The translations under genes were made by a program, and so were the position numbers. Below the pieces are notes generated by a model that worked only from the letters and a program-made list of their open reading frames with translations, was not told where the DNA came from and did no database searches. A DNA stretch of 64,000 nt from Pseudomonadota bacterium (GTDB lineage Bacteria; Pseudomonadota; Gammaproteobacteria; Steroidobacterales; Steroidobacteraceae): contig JAFEDU010000004.1 of NCBI GenBank assembly GCA_018241425.1, positions 1 to 64,000 on the forward strand, in the 5' to 3' direction. This document shows, one piece after another, positions 43,000-49,995 of this stretch. How positions within the stretch are numbered: position 1 is the stretch's first letter; every line of letters begins with the position of its first letter.

Positions 43000-44232
43000 T
43001 CAGCGGATCTTGGTGCGCATTCCACCGGGTGGAACGCTGATGTTGTTGCTTCCCATCTGCAGCCCGGTCGTATAGATCGAGGAGATGGCGATGTAGTTGT
43101 TGCTGAGTTCATTGTCCTGCAGTACGACGCCCATGCCGTGGTTCAGTGCGATGGCGCCCTTCAGAAGAGTACCGTCGTAACGGTCGGTCTGGCCCGAGAT
43201 CTTGTTGCCAGTGATGCGCAGCGGTCCAGCGGTATTGATGTAGATGCCGCAGGACACCGCGTCCTGGATCGTATTGTCGGTGATATCCACCTGCTGCGGC
43301 ACCTGCCCGTTGCCGTGGGCGGCGCTGTTATAAACCATGATGCCGTAGCGGCCCAGCTCAGGACTCGGCCCGCGCGGCAGGCGCAGCCCTGTGTCCTTGA
43401 CGAGGTTCGCGTGCACGGTCGTGCCGTAGGTGCCCGCCCACACCGCGATACCCTTGTTCACGTACGCGGACTCGAGCGTGTTGTTGGCGATGACCGTGCC
43501 GCGGATCAGCCCGCCCTGGGGCGTGTTGTCCGGGCCATGGACCGAGATCATCGCCGCCACGTCGCTCATGAGTCCCGTGCCCGCGCAGCCCCCGGCAAGG
43601 TTGGCGTCACTGACCAGCACGTTATTGGTGATGCTGACCGCGCTCATCCCCGGGCTGTTCTCGGAGGCATTGACGTCGATCCAGCCGGTACCGTTGAAGT
43701 TGTGGACCTCGTTGCCGGTGACGCTGACGTTCTCGACCGGGGCGCTCTGGTTGCTGTCGGAGCGAACATAGATGGCGTGTCCGTAGTCGAAGTGCTTGTG
43801 ACACCCGCTGTCGTAGGGCGAGCCCTCCAGGCGCAGCCCACGGATCACCACGTTCGATGCGTTGCGCACCCACAGGAAACCCTGGTAAGTGCCGCCGGCC
43901 GCCACCGCGAGCACCGTCGCCTGCGGGCCATCGCCCTGCAGCGTGGTACCGGTCGGAATCGCAAAGCCCACGGCGTATCCGGTGGGCGCAAAGGTATAGG
44001 TCCCGGCGGCGATGTGGATCGTGCGGCCCTTGCAGTCGGCGAGCAGCTTGGTGAAGGCGGTGCTGTTGTCCGCCGCATCGGCCCGCAGCCCGTGGTCGGA
44101 TGCCTCGCAGGTTTCCTGCGCGTTCGCTGCGGCGCAGAACAGCATAAACGCCGCCGCCACCGCGAGGCTCAAAACCGCCATGACGCCAGCGCGGCAAACT
44201 CGTCCGTGATTGCCCATGTGTGCGTTCCCCAT
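43000..44232 (-). CDS. Secreted right-handed beta-helix protein
   Basis: Exported protein of 410 residues. Signal peptide about 1-39 (ANA-QE). The rest shows parallel beta-helix rungs with N-rich ladders (VRNASNVVIRGLRLEG, VENVSVTGNEVHNF, AVSITNNVLVSD, GTVIANNTLES, QVDITDNTIQD, PLRITGNKISGQ), the fold of pectate lyases and polysaccharide epimerases. A leading domain KGRTIHIAAGTYTFAPTGYA is typical of pectate-lyase-like proteins. Its place among biosynthesis genes suggests it trims or modifies the polymer in the periplasm. No catalytic residues can be assigned by eye. Confidence 0.75.
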   Translation of the reverse strand: MGNAHMGNHGRVCRAGVMAVLSLAVAAAFMLFCAAANAQETCEASDHGLRADAADNSTAFTKLLADCKGRTIHIAAGTYTFAPTGYAVGFAIPTGTTLQGDGPQATVLAVAAGGTYQGFLWVRNASNVVIRGLRLEGSPYDSGCHKHFDYGHAIYVRSDSNQSAPVENVSVTGNEVHNFNGTGWIDVNASENSPGMSAVSITNNVLVSDANLAGGCAGTGLMSDVAAMISVHGPDNTPQGGLIRGTVIANNTLESAYVNKGIAVWAGTYGTTVHANLVKDTGLRLPRGPSPELGRYGIMVYNSAAHGNGQVPQQVDITDNTIQDAVSCGIYINTAGPLRITGNKISGQTDRYDGTLLKGAIALNHGMGVVLQDNELSNNYIAISSIYTTGLQMGSNNISVPPGGMRTKIR

Positions 44233-45227: not shown

Positions 45228-46316
45228 CTACTCGGCGGTGCGCGCGACGGCGTAGCCCTCGCGCGCGACCAGGGCATCGCGCCGGGCGAGCGCCAGGTCC
45301 GCGTCGACCATTTCCTTCACCAGCTCCTCGAAGGTGGTCTCCGGCTGCCAGCCCAGCTCGGCCCGGATGCGGCTCGCATCCCCGAGTAGGGAATCCACTT
45401 CCGCCGGCCGGAAGTAGCGCGGGTCGACACGCACGAGGGTACGCCCGCTGGCGGCATCGACCCCGACTTCCTCCGCGCCGCGCCCGGACCAGCGGATCTC
45501 CATGCCCAGGTGGCGCGCGGCGCTCTGCACGAACTCCCGTACCGAGCGCTGCTCGCCGGTCGCGACCACGTAGTCCTTCGGGGTCTGCTGCTGCAGCATC
45601 AGCCACTGGGCGCGGACGTAGTCACGCGCATGCCCCCAGTCGCGCCTGGCATCGAGGTTGCCCAGGTGCAGCGTCGGCTGCAGCCCGGCCTGGATGCGGG
45701 TGAGTCCGCGGGTGATCTTGCGCGAGACGAAGGTCTCTCCCCTCATGGGAGACTCGTGGTTGAACAGGATCCCGCTGCAGGCATACATGCCGTAGGCCTC
45801 GCGGTAGTTCACGCAGATCCAGTGCGCATACAGCTTAGCGACCCCGTAAGGGGAGCGCGGGTAGAACGGCGTCGTCTCCCGCTGCGGCACTTCCTGGACC
45901 TTGCCGAACATCTCCGAGGTCGAGGCCTGGTAGAAGCGCGTGCGGCGCTCGAGCCCCAGGATGCGCAGTGCCTCGAGCATGCGCAGGGTCCCGACCGCGT
46001 CCGCGTTGGCAGTGTACTCGGGCGTCTCGAACGAGACGGCCACGTGGCTCTGGGCGGCCAGGTTGTAGATCTCGTCCGGCTGCACCTGCTGGATGATGCG
46101 GATGAGATTGGTCGCATCGGTCAGGTCGCCGTAATGCAGGGTCAGGCGCACGTCCGGTTCGTGGGGATCCTGGTAGAGCCGGTCGATGCGGTCAGTGTTC
46201 AGGAGCGAGGCGCGTCGTTTGATACCGTGGACGCGGTAGCCCTTGGCGAGCAGCAGTTCAGCGAGGTAGGCACCATCCTGCCCGGTGATGCCGGATATCA
46301 AGGCAATCTTCGACAC
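45228..46316 (-). CDS. gmd: GDP-mannose 4,6-dehydratase
   Basis: Makes GDP-4-keto-6-deoxymannose from GDP-mannose, 362 residues. NADP loop [27 protein letters not shown], YxxxK in [19 protein letters not shown], and [19 protein letters not shown], all diagnostic of Gmd. Paired with fcl it gives GDP-L-fucose. GDP-mannose comes from ManB and ManC, encoded 9 kb downstream on the same strand. Confidence 0.96.
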
Positions 46317-46369: not shown

Positions 46370-48310
46370 TCAGGGCAGCGTCGCGGCGAACGGCAGAGAC
46401 AGGCTACGGATGCTGTTGATCGGGCGGTCGTTGCCGGCATTCGGGTCGGTCCCGCCGGTCCCGGCGATGATCACGAGCTTGAGCGAAGTTTCAGCCCCCA
46501 CCACGTAACAGGTCGGCGCGTGGCGCGGCTCGAAGACGTCATTGTCCGATAGCGCGGTGCCGACGTCAGCCTTGAACTGCTTCCAGTCGGTGCCGTTCTT
46601 GGAGTACCAAAGGTCGGCATGATTCGCGCCGTAGCGCCGCGTGATCGTGCCCCCGTTATTGTTGTAGTCGGTGGGTGCATAGCCCCCGACCAGCCAAACC
46701 ACCCCATCACCATTGGTGGCAGCGCACGACCACATCCGTCCGGGCCATGCGTTTACCGTGGTGCTCTGGGTCCAGTTGACGCCGTCGGGCGAGGACCAGA
46801 CGTCGTTGTAGACCTTGGAGTAGTCGCAGGCTCCGCCGCCCACGATCCACATCTTGCCGTTGAGCACGAAGGCTGCCTCCCCGCAGCGTGGCGCGAAGTT
46901 CGGGATCGCGCCGAGTGCGGTCCATGTGGCCGCATCGGCATCCGTCGTCGAGTACACCAGCGCCGCTTCGGGCTTGAAGTAGTAGAGCGTGGAGCCGAGG
47001 ATCAGGGCGCGTGAATTTTCGGTGGCCTGCGTGGTCACCGGACCCGGCACAGCCGTGCCGTCGGATTGATTGTTGCGCGCCCAGTGCACCCCATCGGCAG
47101 ACCGCCACACGGTCGAACCAATGGCCGTCAGCTGGCCGTTCCATACCGTCAGCGAACTGTATGAGTCGTAGAAATCCGTCGGTACCGGGGCGTCCTGCAC
47201 GCCGTTGTTCAGGCCCGGGATGATGTCGCGCGGGTTGGGCGCGGTGGCAGTCTCAAATGAGGCAGTGGCGTTCCAGGCAAAGCCGAGGTCGTCGCTCGAA
47301 CTCCACAGGTCGAAGTAGCTGCAGGTGAGGAAGCAGCTGTTGGAGTTAGTCGGCACAGTGTATCCGCCACTCACCCATGCATGGCCCAGGAACAGCGCCC
47401 CGTGCGCACTGTCGCGCGGGGCGAACGGCGCGTTGCCGTTCGCCGTCCAGTCGGCCACCGAGACGGTCTGCCCTCCCCCATCCAGATTCTGGCCGTTCGG
47501 GCTGAGGTACACGGCGCCAGAATTGAGCTGCGCCAGCACGCCGCCGGACACCTGCACCAGTCGCTGCACGAGGAGGTTGGAGCTCGTGGCGCTGACGGTG
47601 TTGCCACCGCCGCCGAGATTGGAGTTATCGGGGCTGTAGAACGTCGTGCCGGTGTCGAACAGCGTCACCACCGCGTCAGCGGTACCGACGGGCACGATCT
47701 GCACGACCTGCTGCCCGCCCGCATAGATCTTGACGGTCTTACCGCCGCCGGCGAGATTGAGGCCGTCGGGGCTGTAGTAAACCGGACCGTTGTTGGCGAA
47801 GATGGCGTCCACGCCGCTGCCAACCGGCACGAGTGCGTTTACGACGCCCTCGCCCTGGTAAGCCAACTGGGTCGATCCCCCGCCGCCGAGGTTGGTGCCG
47901 TCGGGACTCATGTAGACCGTGCCGTCTGACATGAGCGCCTCGACGCCGCTGCCGACCGCGGCGATCTGCTTCACCGACAGGTTGCCGCTGTAGGCGGCGA
48001 TCGTCGCGCCGCCTCCGCCCAGGTTATAGCCGTCCGGGCTGTAGTAGGCCGCCCCGTCCGGAAAAAGGGCTACGACCGCCGGGCCGTTCGGGATGTGCAC
48101 GATCGCACTGTACGCGCCGGTCTCGGTCGCAACGGTCGACTGGTTGTTCAGAACTTCGGATGTGGGTGTCGAGCCGGAAGACCCCCCGCACGCGGACAGG
48201 ACGAGTGCGGCCATCGCCGGAACAGCGCGCCGCAGTGTGCCTGGAACGAAACTCGCCGGGGATAATGTCAAATCGCTCACGCCGGTCACGCGGTCCTCAT
48301 ACCTCAGCAA
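46370..48310 (-). CDS. Repeat lipoprotein with C-terminal propeller-like domain
   Basis: A protein of about 646 residues. AALVLSAC is a lipobox with Cys41 if ATG 48310 is used; GTG 48280 is an equally possible start. Residues about 86-283 hold five repeats of a 44-46-residue unit centred on SPDGxNLGGGG (91, 135, 180, 226, 270). The C-terminal half has spaced WxSxDGxxW motifs (VWRSADGVHWARN, DVWSSPDGVNWTQS, DLWYSKNGTDWKQF), recalling Asp-box sialidase or kelch propellers, plus paired cysteines. I do not recognise the repeat family. It lies between wzx and gmd, so a role in binding or handling the secreted polymer is plausible. Confidence 0.65.
   Translation of the reverse strand: MLRYEDRVTGVSDLTLSPASFVPGTLRRAVPAMAALVLSACGGSSGSTPTSEVLNNQSTVATETGAYSAIVHIPNGPAVVALFPDGAAYYSPDGYNLGGGGATIAAYSGNLSVKQIAAVGSGVEALMSDGTVYMSPDGTNLGGGGSTQLAYQGEGVVNALVPVGSGVDAIFANNGPVYYSPDGLNLAGGGKTVKIYAGGQQVVQIVPVGTADAVVTLFDTGTTFYSPDNSNLGGGGNTVSATSSNLLVQRLVQVSGGVLAQLNSGAVYLSPNGQNLDGGGQTVSVADWTANGNAPFAPRDSAHGALFLGHAWVSGGYTVPTNSNSCFLTCSYFDLWSSSDDLGFAWNATASFETATAPNPRDIIPGLNNGVQDAPVPTDFYDSYSSLTVWNGQLTAIGSTVWRSADGVHWARNNQSDGTAVPGPVTTQATENSRALILGSTLYYFKPEAALVYSTTDADAATWTALGAIPNFAPRCGEAAFVLNGKMWIVGGGACDYSKVYNDVWSSPDGVNWTQSTTVNAWPGRMWSCAATNGDGVVWLVGGYAPTDYNNNGGTITRRYGANHADLWYSKNGTDWKQFKADVGTALSDNDVFEPRHAPTCYVVGAETSLKLVIIAGTGGTDPNAGNDRPINSIRSLSLPFAATLP
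47462..48055 (-). repeat. Five tandem SPDGxNLGGGG protein repeats
   Basis: Coding repeat within the lipoprotein gene. Each unit is about 135 bases and ends in a glycine-rich turn: SPDGYNLGGGG, SPDGTNLGGGG, SPDGLNLAGGG, SPDNSNLGGGG, SPNGQNLDGGG. The linkers share a VGSGVDAL-like strand followed by G-x-V/T-Y/F. Divergence between units shows an old duplication. The pattern suggests one blade or rung per unit. Confidence 0.75.
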
Positions 48311-48525: not shown

Positions 48526-49995
48526 TTACCCCCGCTGACGCTGCTGTCCGGCGCTGGGATCACCAACATGCAGCTGCGCAAGCGACCTGAGTATAGCAGT
48601 CCCGCCGCGCAGCCTAAGCCACCCGGCGAGCACGACCGTCATAAGAAATCCATAGCCGGCAACGCGCGCCACCGCCAGGTGCGCCTGGTGAACCGTCGCT
48701 GCACCGGCCACCGCCACCGAGAGCACCCCCAGACCCGACCCACAGGCGCGGCGAAAATCGGCAAGGGGGAAGCCGCAGGCGATGAAAGTCGTTAGGAAGT
48801 AGACCCAGTAGTAGATGAGTCCCAGGGCGGCAAAGGCCCACGTGACCGAGACCGGGTCCAGAAACTGGGCCAAGACGCCTACGGTCACAACGGATACCAG
48901 GGTGAAACTCGCCTCGAGGGCGAACCCGGCGTGTTGGCGCCGGAAGGAGTCGAAGGCGCGGTCGAGCCAGCAGGTCGCCGCAAGCATCAGCGCGGGGGCG
49001 GCGAGCGCCCGCAGGTAGGGGCCGGTGCCATGCCATTTCTCAGACAGCAGCTCGTCGGTGAGGCCGGGAGCCTCGATCGCGAAGGCGGTATAGGGCACCA
49101 CCAGGGCGACAAACATGGTCTCGACCAGGGCACCGGCGATCCGGCCCACGGCTTCCCGCGTGCCGCGGCTTGCGATCGAGTAGAAGATCGGGGATACGGC
49201 GCTGTAGATGAGCGAGTTGGGTGCAAAGGCCACCCGGTAAGCCAGCCCGAACCGGCCGACGGCCGCCGCACCTGCCCCGAGGCCGAGCATGATCTGGATG
49301 AGCCGGTCGCGAACCGAGGATGCGAGGGCATAACCGACCATGTAGGTCGGAAACCGGCGGTAGCGAGCGGCCGCAATGCGCATGCCGCGCAGTGAAGCTC
49401 CGCGCAGCCAGTGGCCCGGCAGGTGCGCCGGAAACGCGAGGCAAAGGCTCTGTGCCACCAGCGCCCCGACGTATCCCCACACCAGCGCCGGCAACTGGGG
49501 CATCACCCGCACCAGCAACAGCTGCATCACCACGGTCATCAGCGCGAAGGTGAACTGGCCGACGCCGATGCTGAGGAATCGGGAGTCCCGCACGCACCAG
49601 CTCGTCAGGCAGCGCTGCACCGCGCCGACCAGGGTCGCAGCCGCGAGCGCCAGGCCGAAGGATCGACCGACCTGGGACGCCTCTCCCGACAGCAGCGCGG
49701 GCGCGATGATCGCCAGCAGCGCAATGCCGCTAGCCACGACCAGCGTAATCGCCATCACCAGGCTGCTCAGCGCCTGCGCTATCATCGCCTGGCGCGGCAG
49801 CACGATCGCCGAGTCGTAGCGCAGGCCGGCGAACACGCTGATCACGGCCGTGATGCCAACGAAAATGACGTACTCGCCGTAGGCGCCGGGATCGAACTGC
49901 CGCGAGTAGAGCGGCAGTGTCCCGATGACCAGAAGCTGCCCCGCTGCAGTAAGGCTACCCAGGGCTATGGCGCGCGATACGACGCGGACAGCCAT
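48526..49995 (-). CDS. wzx: Wzx-type polysaccharide flippase
   Basis: Membrane protein of 489 residues with about 12-14 hydrophobic helices and no cytoplasmic ATPase domain, in the MOP/PST superfamily (polysaccharide biosynthesis protein). It would move the undecaprenyl-linked repeat unit to the periplasmic face. Opens with AVRVVSRAIALGSLTAAGQL and carries the typical long helix pairs with charged residues (RRFPTYMVGYALASSVRDRL). It follows wbpG after 6 bases. Upstream of the next gene, 48311-48525 holds no gene, only a short direct repeat TGCCGGTA at 48480 and 48490. Confidence 0.85.
   Translation of the reverse strand: MAVRVVSRAIALGSLTAAGQLLVIGTLPLYSRQFDPGAYGEYVIFVGITAVISVFAGLRYDSAIVLPRQAMIAQALSSLVMAITLVVASGIALLAIIAPALLSGEASQVGRSFGLALAAATLVGAVQRCLTSWCVRDSRFLSIGVGQFTFALMTVVMQLLLVRVMPQLPALVWGYVGALVAQSLCLAFPAHLPGHWLRGASLRGMRIAAARYRRFPTYMVGYALASSVRDRLIQIMLGLGAGAAAVGRFGLAYRVAFAPNSLIYSAVSPIFYSIASRGTREAVGRIAGALVETMFVALVVPYTAFAIEAPGLTDELLSEKWHGTGPYLRALAAPALMLAATCWLDRAFDSFRRQHAGFALEASFTLVSVVTVGVLAQFLDPVSVTWAFAALGLIYYWVYFLTTFIACGFPLADFRRACGSGLGVLSVAVAGAATVHQAHLAVARVAGYGFLMTVVLAGWLRLRGGTAILRSLAQLHVGDPSAGQQRQRG

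Follow-up and report, generated by a model that had tools for sequence, protein, structure and literature searches.

Within a 64,000-nucleotide stretch of DNA from a Pseudomonadota bacterium of the family Steroidobacteraceae (assembly GCA_018241425.1, contig JAFEDU010000004.1, positions 1 to 64,000; hereafter, the window), a gene located in an exopolysaccharide (EPS) cluster encodes a lipoprotein whose N-terminal half consists of five tandem repeats with the signature SPDGxNLGGGG. These repeats represent a genuine family that is so far in no family database. With a probability of about 0.5, we interpret the protein as an outer-membrane lipoprotein composed of two tandem beta-propellers, a non-catalytic binder or scaffold for an envelope partner, with EPS as the first candidate ligand. 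What is new here is the blade repeat variant; the propeller blade itself is a known kind of fold.

The five units, each of 44–46 residues, follow the lipobox, and the motif SP[DN][GN]xNLxGGG starts at residues 91, 135, 180, 226 and 270 (Table 1). The unit copies are also detectable as a DNA repeat family (66–73% to the reference copy), and the pattern SP[DN]GxNLGGGG, with at most one mismatch, has four matches in the window compared to 0.00 expected from 100 shuffles. A hidden Markov model (HMM) built solely from cyanobacterial and Saprospiraceae units, including no unit of the window protein or of its full-length homologue L037, detects all five window units (independent E-values of 7e-11 to 8e-9, Z=1000), with a total of 155 bits over the protein against a best score of 8.5 bits among 2000 shuffled proteins; reciprocally, a profile of the window units alone recovers the units of the other organisms. 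A preliminary description of this DNA, made from the sequence alone, had reported the five-fold repeat and called it unfamiliar, and both observations hold: Pfam, NCBIfam, PHROGs and PDB sequences yielded no match to the window repeats, and none of five tested spellings of the motif was found in the literature searched. Matches of the repeat profile to PDB sequences were rejected (TrmD and others were not significant; uridylate kinase had an E-value of 1.1).

A scan of 84,980 species genomes with the exact 11-residue pattern, which may miss diverged members, produced 44 stretches. The full-length homologue of the window protein (L037; 42% identity over 585 residues) comes from an uncultured proteobacterium of the same family but a different genus; it retains units 1–3, with unit 5 weak and unit 4 decayed past detection. 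Cyanobacterial relatives occur in Tychonema, Calothrix, Nostoc and UBA11371 as secreted proteins ~200 residues long, with signal-peptide-like N-termini (assessed by eye); Kamptonema has a partial protein and Nostoc NMS8 a fragment. In a metagenome-assembled genome (MAG) of the Saprospiraceae (Bacteroidota), about six blades, six of them detected as units by profile, follow a reprolysin-like metalloprotease domain (HEFGHLMGSRHTH) in a protein (L057:4577-6646) with a lipobox-like FVSC, also recognized by eye, at the N-terminus; these blades alternate between the SPDGxNLGGGG and NxDGTNPGSG types. Taken pairwise, they are almost the same in sequence, which points to a two-blade unit having been amplified recently. 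Relatives of Nostoc sp. S4 (L030 and L110, genomes G663 and G1491) carry a broken version of the cyanobacterial gene, with frames of 40 and 78 codons; these remnants suggest loss in progress.

Outside these relatives, the repeat units are very rare. In genome samples that exclude the starting genomes, they were found in 0 of 57 members of the genus, 0 of 248 genomes of the phylum, 0 of 344 from the phylum of the Saprospiraceae MAG and one further genome among 338 from the phylum of Nostoc sp. S4, and the order-level sample returned only the genome of L037 itself. As the counts are from samples and the scan over all species used the exact pattern, diverged members may have escaped both. Most of the 44 stretches, from Solirubrobacterales and other actinobacteria, were set aside as single motifs in the context GKGVFQE...EYFTPDGxNLGGGG. 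Most of these (within L028–L070) show a conserved YFTPDGxNLGGGG stretch in what look like S41 (CtpA-type) proteases of Solirubrobacterales; the motif there apparently reflects chance or convergence. Also rejected were a viral contig match (L104, a glycine-rich low-complexity protein), weak order-level matches of about 21.7 bits (PurH-like proteins, by eye) and L123 (RibA/B-like, by eye).

Structure prediction, proposed as a check in the preliminary description, indicates that the repeat units are very probably propeller blades. In the AlphaFold2 model of the window protein, each unit comprises about four strands, with a predicted local distance difference test score (pLDDT) of ~75–90 over most of the repeat half, and the 162-residue Nostoc domain modeled alone (pLDDT 93.4, predicted template modeling (TM) score, pTM, 0.88) contains 15 strands arranged in four blades, of which three are complete and four-stranded and the first is three-stranded. 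In Foldseek searches, the Nostoc repeat domain aligns with a run of approximately four successive blades in WD40 rings, in designed eight-bladed rings and in Ycf48 (query TM-scores 0.37–0.67), the matches including Scone-R, Cdc20/Cdh1, Ycf48 and BamB and, among viruses, BNR and RCC1 proteins; the full-length model matches PorZ (top), kelch proteins and GH74. Several features of the full-length model weigh against the two-propeller interpretation: its pTM is 0.52, pLDDT drops below 50 at the junction and in parts of the C-terminal half, neither propeller is resolved as a closed ring, and the TM-scores to PDB structures are low. The earlier opposition of a repeat half to a propeller half is borne out for the C-terminal half but dissolves as a contrast, given that the repeats, too, are predicted four-stranded blades, so that both halves of the protein are predicted propellers. 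Repeated amplification of single blades has been described for propellers (PMC9218822), and the presence of 4, 5 and 6–7 blades in different hosts fits this mode of origin.

Profile comparison points to a probable kinship of the repeat blades with Asp-box (BNR) propellers. Using hhalign, the repeat profile was matched in register over 18 columns to the Asp-box units of L121, a protein of the same order, with 90.2% probability (E 1.5e-6, score 26.7), whereas 60 column shuffles reached at most 9.7% and a score of 14.4, and kelch units 12.8%; the repeat HMM also detects L121 as a whole (sequence E 6e-7 in a small set; best single unit, independent E 3e-4). The Asp-box is defined as (S/t)-X-(D/n)-X-G-X-(T/s)-(W/f/y), with an aromatic residue last, and none of the known structures has a non-aromatic residue at the Trp position (PMC2716378). 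The window units share the strand, S-x-D, turn, strand hairpin in each blade but depart from this consensus, reading S-P-D/N-G/N-x-N-L, with the turn shorter by one residue and Leu, ahead of three to four glycines, in place of the aromatic; no BNR model in Pfam or NCBIfam matches the window protein even at E≤10. Lacking the aromatic, the units are not Asp-boxes proper, and we therefore consider the repeat an Asp-box variant, in which Leu and glycines would replace the Thr-Trp after the Asp turn. The conserved residues of the Asp-box are structural, and ligand binding by them is considered highly unlikely (PMC2716378). Because the profile places the SPDG turn closest to this hairpin, the turn is probably structural as well rather than a binding site; the glycine-rich turn of the preliminary description is indeed present in every unit, but is better regarded as part of an Asp-box-like hairpin. 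An RCC1 repeat, considered at first look, was rejected, there being no RCC1 Pfam match at E≤10.

The C-terminal half had been described as propeller-like with WxSxDGxxW motifs, and this is upheld by weakly significant kelch matches in Pfam and PDB and by a kelch-unit HMM (sequence E 1.6e-13), although the Pfam scores fall below the curated cut-offs (PF24681, 28.5 bits vs 50; Kelch_4, 16.4 vs 21.6). The WxSxDGxxW motif occurs exactly at residues 402 and 505 only, with the variant SKNGTDW at 570; these SxDGxxW-like hairpins (residues 404–410, 507–513 and 570–576) conform to the s-Asp-box pattern and, together with the fusion to the repeat propeller, set this half apart from kelch and galactose-oxidase-like propellers. 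A search of plasmids returned only Leptospira kelch proteins, which match the C-terminal half; no match to the repeat units was found in plasmids or phages. Separately, a genome of the same class (G300) encodes a clear kelch/s-Asp-box hybrid (L007, a 691-aa frame), in which about 12 kelch units are near-identical and all have a hairpin of the SSDGVNW type; this array likely arose by recent amplification.

Taken together, the repeat family and the lipoprotein signal are near certain. The lipobox, LSAC in the window protein and LAGC in L037, supports the lipoprotein assignment made at the outset and is followed by Gly in both proteins; judging from this non-Asp +2 residue, outer-membrane sorting is expected. 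Cysteines are conserved between the two full-length proteins, consistent with an extracytoplasmic location. The location inside EPS genes is confirmed by Pfam matches of the neighbors: the gene lies between gmd and wzx, on the same strand, in a Wzx/Wzy-type cluster that includes Wza-like, Wzz, weak Wzy, Wzx, UGD, gmd, fcl and glycosyltransferase genes. The contig of L037 (5.5 kb) shows no EPS cluster but rather TauE, a TupA-like ATP-grasp protein (PF14305, a family tied to surface polymers) and the start of a lactate permease, which also counts against our interpretation and gives no sign that the EPS linkage of the lipoprotein is conserved.

We propose that the five four-stranded blades of Asp-box (BNR) kind would form the N-terminal propeller and the kelch-like half the second one, that the SPDGxNLGGGG hairpin would hold each blade together, by analogy with the Asp-box, and that binding would fall to variable loops on the faces of the propellers, such that the protein may act at the cell surface as a non-catalytic scaffold or lectin-like binder holding an envelope partner, the EPS made by the surrounding cluster being the first candidate. 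A glycan ligand, taken by itself, is less likely than not. PorZ, which is located at the surface and consists of two tandem propellers, has been shown to bind the anionic lipopolysaccharide (A-LPS) glycan (PMC8545088). It thus illustrates that polysaccharide binding is within reach of such an architecture, but the resemblance is distant (13% identity; TM-score 0.23–0.27), and PorZ has two seven-bladed rings and a C-terminal domain of the type IX secretion system (T9SS), and lacks the SPDGxNLGGGG repeats. Alternatively, and rather less plausibly, the protein could be an envelope scaffold for a protein partner, an assembly factor akin to BamB or Ycf48, with an incidental EPS location: the repeat domain resembles both proteins, no EPS cluster is seen around L037, and the settings of the relatives are unrelated, one of them being the position behind a metalloprotease. 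However, its occurrence in just two of the examined genomes of the order rules out a core assembly factor, and the placement between gmd and wzx on their shared strand argues against mere coincidence.

The earlier suggestion of polymer binding or processing is not supported so far, with no catalytic family match and with L037 found, on its short contig, among unrelated genes and the one TupA-like gene. An EPS-processing enzyme in particular (a propeller glycosidase, lyase or epimerase trimming or modifying the polymer) appears improbable: EPS clusters often carry such enzymes, and GH74 xyloglucanases are among the Foldseek matches, but with TM-scores of just 0.2–0.27, no glycosidase family match was obtained in Pfam or NCBIfam, and catalytic residues could not be assigned. 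Hardly credible is an LGFP-type cell-wall-binding repeat (PF08310), likewise a tandem repeat of the cell envelope, which matches some relatives (L027, 33.9; L064, 25.5; L057, 23.1 bits; cut-off 22; L036 and L044 just under it), since around the IYxSPDG turn the alignment spans only ~18 of 53 profile positions, one third of the profile, the window protein has no match at E≤10, and the LGFP motif is missing.

More broadly, but only as a long shot, the blade family might be a ready-made secreted module that moves from phylum to phylum, is amplified anew to 4, 5 or 6–7 blades per host and serves as a recognition head: here for EPS, in Saprospiraceae to target the metalloprotease to its substrate, and in cyanobacteria possibly as a half-ring that self-assembles (the four blades predicted there correspond to part of eight-bladed designs such as Scone-R). 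The repeats define a small unlisted propeller-blade family in secreted and surface proteins of three phyla, and the compact 162-residue cyanobacterial member should be an easy structure target. Should the ligand of the window lipoprotein be a polysaccharide, the family would offer a clean, minimal model of the way glycan specificity arises in propeller blades; otherwise, it adds modestly to the known diversity of propellers.

Table 1. Features of the lipoprotein gene and its immediate neighbors (window coordinates).
Feature	Coordinates	Strand	Basis or remark
Lipoprotein open reading frame	46370..48310	minus	646 aa counted from TTG; likelier start GTG at 48289
Lipobox L-S-A-C, residues 38-41	48188..48199	minus	sequence; +2 residue Gly
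Blade unit 1	47978..48100	minus	SPDGYNLGGGG at 48008-48040
Blade unit 2	47846..47974	minus	SPDGTNLGGGG at 47876-47908
Blade unit 3	47711..47842	minus	SPDGLNLAGGG at 47741-47773
Blade unit 4	47573..47707	minus	SPDNSNLGGGG at 47603-47635
Blade unit 5	47450..47569	minus	SPNGQNLDGGG at 47471-47503
Kelch-like second propeller (predicted), residues 295-640	46391..47428	minus	weak kelch Pfam/PDB matches, Foldseek, kelch-unit HMM
GDP-mannose 4,6-dehydratase, directly downstream	45228..46316	minus	Pfam PF16363
Wzx-type polysaccharide flippase, directly upstream	48526..49995	minus	Pfam PF13440

The TTG start of the lipoprotein gene is doubtful, and the GTG, which is preceded by a Shine-Dalgarno-like GAGG (read by eye), is the likelier true start. 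The G+C content at third codon positions (GC3) is 0.84, compared to 0.77–0.91 in the neighbors, and recent import is not indicated. The flippase is nearly private to this genome, a counterpart with 28% identity being present in a single other genome of the genus, which fits the usual variability of EPS loci. Elsewhere in the cluster, a HisF-type protein (PF00977; 51140-52069, minus strand) is perhaps one half of a sugar amidotransferase pair, and a right-handed beta-helix protein adjoining fcl (43000-44232, minus strand) is a candidate EPS-modifying protein.
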